Below, in pieces: positions 10,272 through 35,867 of a stretch of DNA of 64,000 nucleotides. How positions within the stretch are numbered: position 1 is the stretch's first letter; each line of letters begins with the position of its first letter. Source of the stretch: Pseudomonas silesiensis (GTDB taxonomy: Bacteria; Pseudomonadota; Gammaproteobacteria; Pseudomonadales; Pseudomonadaceae); the NCBI RefSeq assembly GCF_001661075.1, contig NZ_CP014870.1, positions 310,001 to 374,000 of the forward strand, given 5' to 3'. Both the position numbers and the translations under genes were made by a program. The notes under the pieces were generated by a model. It ran no database searches, was not told the DNA's origin, and was given only the letters and a program-made list of their open reading frames with translations.

Positions 10272-11540
10272 ATGTCTGATCTGAAAACTGCCGCTCTCGA
10301 ATATCACGCCCATCCTCGTCCAGGGAAGCTGAGTGTCGAGCTCACCAAGGCCACCGCTACCGCCCGCGACCTGTCGCTGGCCTACAGCCCCGGCGTAGCC
10401 GAACCAGTACGCGAAATCGCCCGCGATCCTGAGCTGGCCTACAAGTACACCGGTAAAGGCAACCTGGTTGCAGTGATTTCCGATGGCACCGCGATTCTCG
10501 GCCTGGGTAACCTCGGTCCATTGGCTTCCAAGCCAGTCATGGAAGGCAAGGGTGTACTGTTCAAGCGCTTCGCCGGTATTGACGTGTTCGACATCGAAGT
10601 CGACTCCGAAAGCCCGCAAGCCTTCATCGACACGGTCAAGCGCATCTCCATCACTTTCGGTGGCATCAACCTGGAAGACATCAAGGCCCCTGAGTGCTTT
10701 GAGATCGAACGTGCCCTGATCGAGCAGTGCGACATTCCGGTGTTCCACGATGACCAGCACGGCACCGCGATCGTTACCGCGGCCGGCATGATCAACGCCC
10801 TGGAAATCGCTGGCAAAACCCTGGCTGACGCCAAGATCGTCTGCCTGGGCGCCGGTGCTGCCGCCATCTCCTGCATGAAATTGCTGGTGAGCATGGGCGC
10901 CAACATCGAAAACATCTATATGGTTGACCGTACCGGTGTGATCCACTCCGGCCGTGACGACCTGAACCAGTACAAGGCTGTGTTCGCTCACGCGACCGAG
11001 AAACGCTCCCTGGCTGACGCGCTGGAAGGCGCGGACGTGTTCGTTGGCCTGTCCGGTCCGAACCTGCTGAGCGCAGAAGGCCTGAAATCCATGGCGGCCA
11101 ACCCGATCGTGTTCGCGTGCTCGAACCCGGATCCGGAAATCTCCCCGGAACTGGCGCATGCCACCCGCGACGACGTGATCATGGCCACCGGCCGTTCGGA
11201 CTACCCGAACCAGGTCAACAACGTACTGGGCTTCCCGTTCATCTTCCGCGGTGCCCTGGACGTTCGTGCCAAGCGCATCAACGAAGAAATGAAAGTGGCT
11301 GCGGCCAACGCCCTGCGTGAACTGGCCAAACTGCCAGTGCCCCAGGAAGTGTGCGACGCCTATGGCGGCATCAAGCTGGAATTCGGTCGTGAGTACATCA
11401 TCCCGAAACCGATGGATGCCCGTCTGATCACCCTGATCTCCGATGCCGTGGCCAAGGCTGCGATCGAGACCGGTGTGGCGACCCTGCCGTATCCGAAGAA
11501 CTACCCGCTGAAAAGCGTGGATGATGTGTTCAACGGCTAA
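10272..11540 (+). CDS. maeB: NADP-type malic enzyme, short form
   Basis: Oxidative decarboxylation of malate to pyruvate with NAD(P)H production. The 422-aa protein has the N-terminal malic domain ([47 protein letters not shown]) and the Rossmann domain ([20 protein letters not shown]). It lacks the C-terminal phosphotransacetylase-like domain of E. coli MaeB, as other pseudomonad forms do. Start [12 protein letters not shown] at 10272. The upstream 180 nt hold a TTGACA at 10179 without a good -10, and an AT-rich stretch at 10089-10125. A strong terminator follows. Confidence 0.93.
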
Positions 11541-11594: not shown

Positions 11595-11654
11595 TGTATC
11601 TGCGGCTTTTGCGTCGTCCGCAAGGGCCCCTTCGCGGGCAAGCCCGCTTGTATG

Positions 11655-11815
11655 CTAGGACTTGAAGGGAGGAGAAGGGACAAAGCCCGATTCTGACTGT
11701 TGACGCAGTACAGATCCGTGGGAGATTTCGCCCCTCCTCCTTTCACTCAAGCGCCGATAAAGAATGCATCAGGCTAAGACCGACGATAGGAACAAGCCTG
11801 CGCCCCTGGGTGAGC
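11655..11815 (+). ncRNA. Predicted IS110 bridge RNA
   Basis: Approximate limits. The target loop is clear: outer stem CTTGAAGGGAGGAG (11661-11674) pairs with CTCCTCCTTT…TCAAG (11734-11751). Inside it, AAGCCCG (11683-11689) equals the left target flank 11640-11646, and GTGGGAG (11718-11724) is complementary to CTCCCAC (12824-12830), the core plus right flank. An 8-bp hairpin with one bulged A (TCTGACTG/CAGTACAGA) separates the two guides. A second hairpin (CAGGCT 11770-11775 / AGCCTG 11795-11800) could be the donor loop: ACAAG (11792-11796) is complementary to the core plus left element end (CTTGT). The other donor guide is not settled (AGAAT 11761-11765 or ATAG 11786-11789, both resembling the right end). 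Confidence 0.65.
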
Positions 11816-11853
11816 CCTTCAAGTGTTCAAAACCATATCTCGGGGGAATTTCA

Positions 11854-12801
11854 ATGGCAATGCCAGTTTCTGTCCTGATGCCAATCGTTGGCGTCGATGT
11901 CGCCAAGAATGAGTTGGTGATCTTTCAAGCTGAGCTGGATCTGCTTGAGACGATTCCCAACAACAAGACGGCGATCAAGCAATGGCTGAAGGGCTTGCCA
12001 GGGGCTGTCGAAGTCGCCATTGAGTCCACCAATATCTATCACTTAGAGTTTGCCGATCTGGCCCATGAGGCCGGCTGCACGATCTACATGGTGGATGGCT
12101 ATGAGCTGAGCCATTACCGCAAAGGCGTGAAAATTCGTGCGAAGACCGATGCGCTGGATGCCAAATTGCTCGCTCGCTACCTGAAGAACGAACACGAAGA
12201 GTTGCATCCATGGATCCCGCCTTCCCCCCTGTATCGCAGGCTTTTGAGTCTTTTTCGCCGTCGTTCTGCATTGGTTCAGGCCCGAGTTGGCTTGGTGCAA
12301 AGCTGGTCGAATGAACCGCTCCTCAAAACAGCCTTTGCCGCGCAAGTAGCATCAATGCAGAAGCTTGAGGTGCTGGTTGAAAAGATGATCAATGATCACT
12401 TGAAAGAGGCTGGCTTACTCGCTCAGTTAAAGCGCTGCATGAAAGTTGAAGGGATCGGATTTCTGACGGGCGCTCGCCTGATCGCGGCATTTCAACGAGG
12501 CGACTTCAGAAACGCGGACGCATTCATCGCTTTTCTAGGAATGGATTTGCGAGTCTCGAAATCAGGACAGAAAGACGGTCGAAGGAGCTTGACCAAACGT
12601 GGAGATCCCGAGGCACGCCGACTTCTGCACAACGCGGCCATGTCGGCCAGCCGTACGTCAACCTGGAACGGGTTTTACCAGGAGCAAAGGGATCGAGGAT
12701 TCAGTACCACGCAAGCGCTGGTGATACTGGCTCGCAAACTCGCTCGAATCGTATTCGCCCTGCTGAAAGGGCAGAGCGAATACCAACCGAAAGCAGGTTG
12801 A
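11854..12801 (+). CDS. IS110-family transposase (DEDD recombinase)
   Basis: A 315-aa recombinase. The N-terminal RuvC-like domain has D15 (VGVDVAKNE), E57 (AIESTNIY), D99 and D102 (KTDALDAKLLARY), i.e. the DEDD set. The C-terminal Transposase_20 domain follows (GIGFLTGARLIAAFQRGDF, then KDGRRSLTKRGDPEARRLLHNAA). The frame is intact. The start MAMPVSVLM at 11854 is preceded by CGGGGGA at 8 nt; an in-frame ATG at 11764 lies in the bridge-RNA region and is rejected. Having the non-coding RNA upstream places it in the IS110 rather than the IS1111 group. Confidence 0.95.
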   Translation: MAMPVSVLMPIVGVDVAKNELVIFQAELDLLETIPNNKTAIKQWLKGLPGAVEVAIESTNIYHLEFADLAHEAGCTIYMVDGYELSHYRKGVKIRAKTDALDAKLLARYLKNEHEELHPWIPPSPLYRRLLSLFRRRSALVQARVGLVQSWSNEPLLKTAFAAQVASMQKLEVLVEKMINDHLKEAGLLAQLKRCMKVEGIGFLTGARLIAAFQRGDFRNADAFIAFLGMDLRVSKSGQKDGRRSLTKRGDPEARRLLHNAAMSASRTSTWNGFYQEQRDRGFSTTQALVILARKLARIVFALLKGQSEYQPKAG

Positions 12802-12933
12802 GGCTTCCCCTCAACCATAGAATCTCCCACAGTGGCCGGCGATGTCTGCACAATTTGTGTACGCCGCTGATCCCTGTGGGAGCGGGCTTGCCCGCGAAGA
12901 GGCCCTCATAGACAACACAACGCCCACAGGCAG

Positions 12934-12983: not shown

Positions 12984-15431
12984 TCAGAACAAATCGATCG
13001 GCGCCCCTTCATCCGCTGGCAGCGGGCTGCCCGGCGCATTGCCGTTGCCCAGCTCGTTACCCGACGGTGGCGTGTCCTCGGCCTTGAACAGTTCGAAGTA
13101 GGCCCCTGGCGTGCCAGGGGAGGCTGCACGGCCACTGATCGGGTCGACTCGCAGGCTGAGGATGCCTTCCGGCTCTCGTTGCGTATGGGGCGGCTTGTCT
13201 TTAAGCGCGGCGCCCATGTAGCTCATCCAGATCGGCAGTGCTACGGTGCCGCCGAACTCCCGGCGACCCAGGCTTTCAGGCTGGTCGAAGCCGGTCCAGA
13301 CGGTAGTCACGTAGTCGGCGTTGTAGCCGGAGAACCAGGCGTCCTTGGATTCGTTGGTGGTGCCGGTCTTGCCCGCAATGTCGCTGCGACCCAATGACAG
13401 GGCGCGGCGGCCGGTGCCGCGCTTGATGACGTCCTCAAGCATGCTGTTGAGGATGAACGTGGTGCGGCCATCGACGATGCGTTCGGCCACGGCCGGTGCG
13501 GGTGGCGCTGGCTGGGCAGTCAGGGTGTCGCCTGGCGTAGCGCTGACGGTGAACGCGTCGGCGGCCGGGACCGGGGCCGCAATGCCATCGCTGACTGCAT
13601 CGCTTTTCGGAACGCTTGGCGGGTTGGCGACGAACAGCGTATCGCCGTTGCGGCTTTCGATCTTTTCGATGATGTACGGGGTGATCTTGTAGCCGCCGTT
13701 GGCGAAGGTGCTCCAGCCGGTGGCGATTTCCATGGGCGTCAGGGTGGCGGTGCCCAGGGCCAGGGACAGGTTGCGCGGCAGGTCCTGTTTGTTGAAGCCG
13801 AACTTGCTGATGTAGTCGATGGTGCGATCTACACCCAGCGCTTGCAGCAGGCGGATCGACACCAGGTTGCGCGACTTGTAGAGCGCCTCCCGCATGCGGA
13901 TCGGCCCAAGAAAGGTATTGGTGTCGTTCTTCGGACGCCAGACCTTGTCCAGGTATTCGTCGACAAACACGATAGGGGCGTCGTTCACCAGGCTGGCGGC
14001 GGTGTAGCCATTGTCCAGCGCGGCGCTGTAGACGAACGGCTTGAAACTCGAGCCCGGTTGGCGCTTGGCCTGCATCGCGCGGTTGTAGTTGCTCTGCTCG
14101 AACGCAAAGCCGCCGACCAGCGAGCGAATGGCGCCGTTCTGCGGGTCGAGGGACACCAGTGCGCCCTGGGCTTGCGGGATCTGGCTGAACTTCAGCGAGT
14201 TGTCTGGCTGGCGCTGGACGCGAACCAGGTCGCCGACATGAGCCACATCCGAAGGTTGCTTGGGATTGGGGCCCATGCTGTTGGTGTTCAGGAACGGGCG
14301 CGCCCATTTCATGGTGTCCCAGCTGACGTGTTCTTCCCCGGTACGGGTCAGCACCTGCAGGCCGGTCTTGTCGACCTGGGTGACGATGGCCGGCTCGAGG
14401 CTGCTGATGGTACGCTGCTTGGTCAGTTCGGTAGCCCAGGCCTCGCGGGTCTTGCCCGGCAGGCGTGATTCGGGGCCACGATAGCCGTGACGCTGATCGT
14501 AGGTCATCAAGCCTTCGTGGACCGCGGTGTTGGCCATTTCCTGCAGGTTGCTCGGCACCGTGGTGGTGACGCGGAAGCCTTCGGTATACGCGTCGCTGCC
14601 ATAGCGCCCGACCATTTCGGCGCGGGCCATTTCAGCGATGTACGGCGCGTTCACTTCCGGGGTCGGTACGTGATAACTGGCGTTGAGCGGCTCGTTGATC
14701 GCAGCGGTGTAGTCGGCCTCGGTGATCTTGCCCAGCTTGTACATGCGCCCCAGGATCCAGTCGCGACGCTCCTTGCTTCGGGCAGGGTTGGCCAACGGGT
14801 TGAAGCGCGACGGCGCTTTGGGCAGGCCGGCGATCATCGCCATTTGCGCCAGGCTGACGTCTCGAATCGACTTGCCGTAATAGACTTGCGCCGCGGCCTC
14901 GATGCCGTAGGCGCGGTTGCCCAGATAGATTTTGTTCACGTACAACTCAAGGATTTCATCCTTGGTCAGTTGTCGTTCGATCTGCAGGGCCAGGAGGATT
15001 TCGGTGGTCTTGCGCGAGAAACTGCGTTCGCTGGTAAGGAAAAAATTCTTCGCAACCTGCATAGTGATGGTGCTGCCGCCGGACTGGATGTGTCCGCTCT
15101 TGATCAGCTGAGTGGCGGCGCGCATCAGGCTGCCGGGATCGACGCCATAGTGGTTGGCGAAATTATCGTCTTCGGCGCTGAGCAGGGCATTGATGAAATT
15201 GGGGGGGATGTCGGCGAAACGGATCGGAGTGCGGCGCATTTCGCCAAACTCCGCGATCAATTTGTCGTCGCTGCTATACACCCGCAAGGGGATCTGCAAC
15301 TGAATGCTTCTCAGTGCCTCCACGGATGGCAATCCGGGGCTAAGGTAAAGAAACGCGCCGCTCAGACCAAGGAGCAGTCCGCAGAAGACCGCGACGATGG
15401 ACCACCCGAAAAATTTCAGCAGACGAATCAA
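12984..15431 (-). CDS. ponA: Penicillin-binding protein 1A, bifunctional transglycosylase/transpeptidase
   Basis: Class A PBP that polymerises and cross-links peptidoglycan. The ~815-aa protein has an N-terminal membrane anchor (FFGWSIVAVFCGLLLGLSGAF), the GT51 glycosyltransferase domain (LLSAEDDNFANHYGVD; GGSTITMQVAKNFFL; EILELYVNKIYLGNRAYG), an OB-like insert typical of PBP1A, and the transpeptidase with SxxK (PGSSFKPF), SxN (SRN) and KTGT (AGKTGTTNES). The start is uncertain: Pseudomonas homologues begin at MRLLKF, and here TTG at 15431 (LIRLLKFFGW) is closest; TTG at 15452 is also open. It is divergent from pilM, the usual Pseudomonas arrangement. Confidence 0.95.
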   Translation of the reverse strand: MIRLLKFFGWSIVAVFCGLLLGLSGAFLYLSPGLPSVEALRSIQLQIPLRVYSSDDKLIAEFGEMRRTPIRFADIPPNFINALLSAEDDNFANHYGVDPGSLMRAATQLIKSGHIQSGGSTITMQVAKNFFLTSERSFSRKTTEILLALQIERQLTKDEILELYVNKIYLGNRAYGIEAAAQVYYGKSIRDVSLAQMAMIAGLPKAPSRFNPLANPARSKERRDWILGRMYKLGKITEADYTAAINEPLNASYHVPTPEVNAPYIAEMARAEMVGRYGSDAYTEGFRVTTTVPSNLQEMANTAVHEGLMTYDQRHGYRGPESRLPGKTREAWATELTKQRTISSLEPAIVTQVDKTGLQVLTRTGEEHVSWDTMKWARPFLNTNSMGPNPKQPSDVAHVGDLVRVQRQPDNSLKFSQIPQAQGALVSLDPQNGAIRSLVGGFAFEQSNYNRAMQAKRQPGSSFKPFVYSAALDNGYTAASLVNDAPIVFVDEYLDKVWRPKNDTNTFLGPIRMREALYKSRNLVSIRLLQALGVDRTIDYISKFGFNKQDLPRNLSLALGTATLTPMEIATGWSTFANGGYKITPYIIEKIESRNGDTLFVANPPSVPKSDAVSDGIAAPVPAADAFTVSATPGDTLTAQPAPPAPAVAERIVDGRTTFILNSMLEDVIKRGTGRRALSLGRSDIAGKTGTTNESKDAWFSGYNADYVTTVWTGFDQPESLGRREFGGTVALPIWMSYMGAALKDKPPHTQREPEGILSLRVDPISGRAASPGTPGAYFELFKAEDTPPSGNELGNGNAPGSPLPADEGAPIDLF

Positions 15432-15528
15432 GGCTTTTGGATATCCAGGCAAAGAATGAATTAGGCTCAGGGTTCAGGTAAACAGGGAAACCCGCGCTTG
15501 AAGTAAATGCGGAAAAAAATCGCTGGGC

Positions 15529-35688: not shown

Positions 35689-35761
35689 TCGGGTTTAGTA
35701 GCCCGGTGTTTTCCAGGGCGTATAGCGCATCAGACAGTCAGGTACCCCATCCCTGCACTTT

Positions 35762-35867
35762 ATGGTGGCTGTGCGTAGGGCGCTCTCGGGCGCGCCGGCT
35801 TCCTGGATTCCCGGTCTACTAACCTGCGTACAGCTACCACCTCTTGATTAGTAGCTCGATGGTGGTC
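35762..35867 (+). ncRNA. Structured leader RNA before the DUF6124 gene
   Basis: The arm GGTGGCTGTGCGTAGG (35764-35779) pairs with CCTGCGTACAGCTACCACC (35823-35841) over ~16 bp (two G-U pairs, one 3-nt bulge), enclosing two hairpins (GCGC/GCGC near 35780-35793 and CCGG/CCGG near 35796-35813). The closing segment ACCACC (35836-35841) can alternatively pair with GGTGGT (35861-35866), so two exclusive folds are possible, as in riboswitch or attenuator leaders. It ends 22 nt before the DUF6124 start. No known class is assigned. Confidence 0.6.

Follow-up and report, generated by a model that had tools for sequence, protein, structure and literature searches.

We analysed a 64,000-nucleotide stretch of the Pseudomonas silesiensis genome (contig NZ_CP014870.1, positions 310,001 to 374,000; hereafter the window), in which an insertion sequence of the IS110 group splits a REP. 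We consider it very probable that the left end of this element specifies a bridge RNA whose guides spell out the REP target. The guides match the two target halves, the fold that would present them is conserved among related left ends, and across separate insertions of related elements the left guide and the left target change together.

The element and its insertion site

The insertion sequence occupies positions 11649-12823 of the forward strand and measures 1,175 bp, or 1,177 bp when one CT core is included. Its ends were read from the flanks of the copies in the same genome and from an uninterrupted REP pair in a second genome. On the left, the target half AAGCCCG (11640-11646), which is part of a REP, is followed by the CT core (11647-11648), while on the right the second CT (12824-12825) and the target half CCCAC together fill 12824-12830. 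The first-pass annotation had placed the element exactly at a CT inside a REP, and this was borne out to the base, the left REP of an inverted pair being the one that is split; the span given at that time, 11631-12832, does contain the element but takes in target flanks as well. The site is intergenic, the inverted REP pair lying between a malic-enzyme-like gene that ends at 11540 and a ponA-like gene on the reverse strand (12984-15452), both putative names being our own reading of the open reading frames. At the same intergenic place in another genome (G005, locus L242), the inverted REP pair is uninterrupted and slightly different in sequence, which supports both the boundaries and the position inside a REP. 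This place was readable in eight genomes besides the window's own, and a clear inverted REP pair was found there only in L242, L248 and L249.

The host genome, a single contig of 6.82 Mb (G000), carries the element five times in full and once in part (425 bp, 98%). All six copies share the left junction AAGCCCG-CT, and all five that have a right end share the right junction CT-CCCACA. Outside the 16 bases CAAGCCCG-CT-CCCACA, 25 of 26 flank positions examined differ among the five full copies; the bases preceding AAGCCCG are GGGC, GAGC or CGAC, and beyond CTCCCACA one right flank continues with TT and the other copies with GT or GG. The partial copy (G000:C1:520353-520777) keeps the left end as well as the first part of the gene, and thus it is conceivable that it could still supply a bridge RNA.

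Two further RNA matches were noted in the window. An Rfam asponA match (15159-15452, 123.8 bits) lies antisense to the ponA-like gene beside the element. C4 antisense RNAs belong to a family from the immunity regions of phages P1 and P4. A match to this family (RF01695, 81 bits) at 35758-35844 may point to a prophage or satellite nearby.

The recombinase and family membership

The recombinase gene is assigned to 11854-12801 on the forward strand. Its reading frame is open as far upstream as 11764, within the donor loop described below; we prefer 11854 as the start because ATGGCAATG (45 of 71 distinct left ends) or GTGGCAATG (7 of 71) occurs at about the place where 11854 lies. The protein scores above the cut-offs of PF01548 and PF02371, namely a DEDD RuvC-like N-terminal domain and a C-terminal Tnp (Transposase_20) domain, and reaches 174.8 bits against a cut-off of 140 for NF033542. 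A phmmer search of PDB sequences returned only the transposases of IS621 (E 2.6e-18) and ISCro4 (E 5.5e-18); the similarity to IS621 is remote. The E of IEST, KTDALDA and the SG of VSKSGQ align with catalytic motifs of IS621; for the first catalytic D (GVDVAK), which falls beyond that alignment, we rely on the sequence itself and the extent of the Pfam match. The left non-coding end (205 nt before the preferred start) is much longer than the right one, which comprises the 22 nt after the stop codon (12802-12823) and terminates in ACCATAGAAT. As judged from its domains, catalytic residues and end lengths, the element is a member of the IS110 family and, within it, of the IS110 group; the IS1111 group, whose RNA lies in the right end, was ruled out by a right end of just 22 nt.

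The predicted bridge RNA

In the strand fold, the left end forms two stem-loops, and together with the consensus fold obtained from 62 distinct left ends (L138 and left ends containing N were set aside) this places the predicted bridge RNA at about 11655-11823 of the forward strand, its ends being approximate. The target-binding loop (11664-11745) consists of an outer stem, the left target guide (LTG) AAGCCCG at 11683-11689, an inner hairpin at 11692-11714 with eight pairs in the consensus, and the right target guide (RTG) GTGGGAG at 11718-11724. As the first-pass annotation had it, LTG has the same sequence as the left target half, whereas RTG is complementary to the core plus right target half, CTCCCAC; both pairs of coordinates were exact. 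The two bases after LTG, AT, lie across from the core CT; the A is a mismatch and the T a match. The hairpin that was said to separate the two guides is well conserved, with seven of its eight pairs kept in 60 to 62 of the 62 left ends and two-sided changes at two pairs; the innermost pair, 11699-11706, is kept in 44. Most of the outer stem is kept too, with two-sided changes at two pairs and two pairs found in just 36 of 62.

Beyond the earlier reading, the left end also appears to contain a donor-binding loop as its second loop (11751-11803), which we recognised by the consensus fold and by its match to the element's own ends. Its left donor guide (LDG) AAAGAAT (11759-11765) agrees at six of seven positions with ATAGAAT of the right end (12817-12823), and its right donor guide (RDG) ACAAG (11792-11796) is complementary to CTTGT (11647-11651) at five of five contiguous positions. 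The donor ends hardly vary among the relatives. The stem 11751-11754/11800-11803 is paired in 62 of 62 left ends with zero variation, and hence receives no support from covariation. C11797, the base after RDG, is the predicted handshake guide for target position 7 (G11646). In one relative, L138 (1,093 bp), a target-binding loop is present, apparently without a donor-binding loop.

The whole-strand minimum free energy is just mildly better than that of shuffled sequences (z-score -1.9), and the consensus fold also joins a few guide bases to each other. Searching the left end against Rfam 15 gave no match at gathering level and, at a low threshold, two weak matches to miRNA families (E 0.3 and 2.2), so no curated family fits the predicted RNA. 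By our own arithmetic, a given 7-mer would occur anywhere in a 205-nt left end with a chance of about 0.012, and both guides with about 1.5e-4; the permutation result among the relatives is the stronger test.

Left guides and left targets change together

Relatives were gathered from contigs of named genomes (82 loci confirmed, of which 80 were used), from 398 genomes of the genus (at least 153 with a match and at least 30 loci kept, at most five candidates being scored per genome) and from 100 further stretches. Parsing covered 216 loci, leaving out the single REP hits L007-L030; in 25 of the 216 the search pattern recovered no left end, these being fragments, distant relatives or contig ends. 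Among the matches listed, 194 hits less 15 duplicates gave 179 distinct insertions, and the guide/target comparison used 177 after both L066 rows were dropped. The distant loci L089, L092-L095 and L102-L104 were read separately and enter none of the counts. A search of plasmids returned 502 records, every one below 60% identity.

Most of the parsed copies reside in REP-like sites, and the left target mostly follows the guide. Against its own guide, the left target matches at 7/7 in 93 of the 177 insertions, at 6 in 52, at 5 in 12, at 4 in 7 and at fewer in 13; thus 145 (82%) reach six or seven, compared with 14% when guides of other groups are used, and the mean match is 6.09 compared with 4.18. 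When the 20 guides were permuted among the target sets, none of 20,000 permutations was as good as the observed assignment, and the covariation that the first-pass annotation had proposed to look for is therefore established for the left guide. Exact identity of guide and target holds for AGGCTCG in 40 of 51 insertions, AAGCCCG in 22 of 30, AAGCTCG in 13 of 18, AAGCCAG in 12 of 16 and AGCCGCC in 4 of 4. TAGTTCG faces AAGTTCG in 5 of 5, CAGTTCG (n=5) and AAAGCCG (n=5) have no exact match, and AGCTCGT (n=8) and AGCCTAG (n=4) are out of register.

Copies that sit at other targets with an unchanged loop do occur, 32 of the 177 falling below six of seven, yet the majority follow their own guide. 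Some guides among these 32 seem shifted by one base or to carry an extra base, and others are true mismatches. L044 (4/7) and L063 (5/7) fit poorly, and in genome G289 three of four copies with guide AGGCTCG sit at AAGCTCG. We do not claim a preference for wobble pairs, because guide G/target A or U/C accounts for 44 of 161 mismatched positions compared with 38 for the reverse (A/G, C/T). Another of the 32, L056 (guide AAGCCCG; junctions at about 1369-1384 on the left and 2562 on the right), has a left flank that ends in CTCCCACATTTGGTAG and a right flank that opens with the same 16 bases, without the left half of a REP. Among the distant Methyloversatilis loci, L102 has guide GAGCTCG at AAGCTCG and L092/L093 have CAGTCCG at AAGCCCG; L094, L095, L103 and L104 have other left flanks with a less good guide fit, that of L095, L103 and L104 being AGAGGCCG, a poor fit to their own guides.

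In a quickly built protein tree, which had 108 rows once short proteins and repeats were removed, the guide changed at least 25 times, out-of-register guides included. Within the clade that holds the window's element (support 98), each of three guides, AAGCCCG, AGGCTCG and AAGCCAG, goes with its own matching target, L044 being the exception. Tests on independent pairs, as averages for:against, gave 4.0:0.1 at position 2, 1.5:0.0 at position 4, 4.0:1.1 at position 5 and 2.0:0.0 at position 6, all in the right direction and with too few pairs for significance at any single position.

The right guide and the predicted handshake base

The right guide varies far less. In the 177 insertions, GTGGGAG faces CTCCCAC in 158 and CTCCTAC in 4, GTAGGAG faces CTCCTAC in 5 and GTGAGAG faces CTCCCAC in 4; of the remaining right halves, one is TTCCCAC, one is CTCTCAC and four are without a right flank. 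The five GTAGGAG/CTCCTAC insertions are all five of genome G094, and the same combination recurs in the distant L089 (a Nevskiaceae MAG, 47% identity). Because L089 is not on the tree, we only infer that these two changes arose independently of each other. For the right guide, the proposed covariation is thus seen in two distant lineages, and it fails in G080, where the guide is GTGAGAG but the target has stayed CTCCCAC in all 4 insertions. The guides of the G094 elements are TAGTTCG/GTAGGAG, and in the same genome REPs of the AGTTCG type form tandem arrays that repeat about every 108 bp (e.g. C2:1636729-1637605).

For IS621, the base after RDG is reported to have the potential to pair with target position 7 (PMC11208158). 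In the 179 distinct insertions this base is C in 168, G in 4 and U in 5, with 2 unparsed. Position 7 of the target is G in 167 of the 168 with C (A in one, a truncated copy), C in all four with G, which come from G080, and C in four and G in one of the five with U (the L077/G139 group). The compensation at this base, seen in two lineages only, is suggestive. The G080 elements (L207-L210) are about 1,371 bp long and have a guide region, AAGCCGCC, equal to the target, AAGCCGCC, with a handshake base G rather than C and, in RTG GTGAGAG, one target mismatch.

What explains the match between guide and target

The agreement could mirror merely the commonest REP variant of each host. We consider this very improbable, though it is the least improbable of the alternatives weighed here. 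The guide is indeed the commonest of the few counted variants in 9 of 12 genomes with an in-register counted guide, G139 among them even though its copies are mostly at AAGCCCC; it is not the commonest in G289, G295 and G398. In the window's genome, 742 RGCYNGCTCCCAC sites include 373 of AAGCCCG-CTCCCAC, 267 of AAGCTCG-CTCCCAC and 37 of AGGCTCG-CTCCCAC. We therefore compared the copies with the REP composition in 8 of the 19 genomes with REPs counted, where 32 of 38 copies match exactly compared with 20.6 expected (P 2.7e-6), or 28 of 33 compared with 20.4 when G398 is omitted (P 0.0017). Left out were G273 (loci recurring across collections), G295 and G366 (unlike denominators) and eight more genomes whose guide is out of register or had its own variant uncounted; G139, with a counted guide, likewise stayed outside this control. 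In G398 (Pseudomonas sp. DTU12.3), four of five copies sit at AAGCCAG compared with 0.22 expected, this variant making up 42 of 964 REP-like sites; two of these copies share one 4-kb locus in which some AAGCCAG sites cluster, and so they are perhaps not fully independent. In two genomes, exact matches are slightly fewer than expected: 4 compared with 4.28 in G111 and 1 compared with 1.32 in G289. Host REP abundance hence does not account for all of the agreement, and the layout of a target-binding loop that had been read from the window is supported.

That most copies reside in REP-like sites would also be expected if the transposase protein itself recognised the REP hairpin, the loop matches being incidental or regulatory, as has been suggested for the RNA upstream of ISPpu9, where a structured 5'-UTR and an antisense RNA have been described (PMC8450116). 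Such recognition is hard to reconcile with a single clade (L001, L031/L032, L040/L053) in which recombinases 87-89% identical to the query (L031/L032, L040/L053) occupy different REP variants in accordance with their guides, nor would it account for the preference of the G398 elements for a REP variant that makes up a 4% minority, and we regard it as very unlikely. We give even less credence to the idea that the left end has simply captured REP DNA, so that guide and target resemble each other by common descent. LTG and target are both REP-like, as that idea would have it, but the two matching stretches lie on opposite strands, with a conserved hairpin between them and each ending at the core; moreover, the left stretch changes in step with the flanks from one separate insertion to another, and the right stretch does so in two distant lineages, of which L089 lies outside the tree.

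Guidance by a bridge RNA thus remains our preferred reading. The left end of the element would encode this RNA, which would be transcribed and bound by the recombinase; its first loop would pair with the target in the course of the reaction and its second loop with the element's own joined ends, whereupon the DEDD/serine recombinase would exchange strands at CT. Since the guide appears to spell a REP variant, AAGCCCG-CT-CCCAC, that is present hundreds of times in the host, copies could spread among REPs, and the element may be active at present. In relatives, the left guide has been rewritten repeatedly, and the copies are mostly found in the REP variant spelled by the new guide.

Relation to known systems and implications

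The closest described mechanism is that of IS621, an IS110-group element of Escherichia coli, which likewise has a left-end bridge RNA with the target loop before the donor loop, a CT core, a REP target, the donor CT-TGTAT and a DEDD plus serine recombinase (PMC11208160, PMC11208158). The REP target of IS621 differs from that of the window's element, RTG pairing covers 7 nt here compared with 4 in the IS621 structure, and, unlike in IS621 (PMC11208158), the core C is left unmatched by LTG (A opposite) and faced by a G in LDG. A11725 after RTG occupies the place of the IS621 handshake guide A81 (PMC11208158). ISPpu9 and ISPpu10 of P. putida KT2440 share with the window's element the IS110 family and insertion into a Pseudomonas REP, 7 of 7 copies of each lying inside one with 2-bp repeats (PMC1525189), and according to an extended-data legend ISPpu10 has been depicted with a bridge RNA (PMC11208160). 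The seekRNA study (PMC11187229) describes two RNA-guided elements: ISEc21 (IS110 type), similar in that an RNA from upstream of tnp guides the target, and different in its target and the name of its RNA; and ISPa11 of P. aeruginosa (IS1111 type), similar in its REP target, and different in having the RNA downstream of tnp and the guides in reversed order. Natural re-programming among relatives is stated there too.

The REP-targeting lineage in Pseudomonas that the first-pass annotation suggested is not new, as REP insertion by ISPpu9 and ISPpu10 dates from 2006 (PMC1525189) and bridge RNAs from 2024 (PMC11208160). With REP-targeting IS110 elements, bridge RNAs and natural re-programming in print already, the mechanism is not new either. 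In the titles and abstract openings found among open-licence PubMed Central papers, to which our search was confined, the guide series itself is not described.

From raw sequence one can thus read where an IS110 element inserts, and relatives of the same element allow the reading to be checked. These relatives make up a compact natural data set of 20 left-guide variants with their mismatches, which bears on the question of what rewritten guides survive; a few lineages add changes of the right guide, and there is one possible compensation at the handshake base. The data set is useful in choosing bridge recombinases, the mechanism itself having already been published. It is possible, although we hold this tentatively and at somewhat less than even chances, that these elements form a Pseudomonas-wide lineage whose guides track the evolution of REPs, the guide halves and the handshake base being rewritten together when the elements move to new REP variants. 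If so, they would constitute a natural record of multi-part reprogramming, with a compensatory handshake change from C-G to G-C in G080 and a loss of this pairing in the L077/G139 group.
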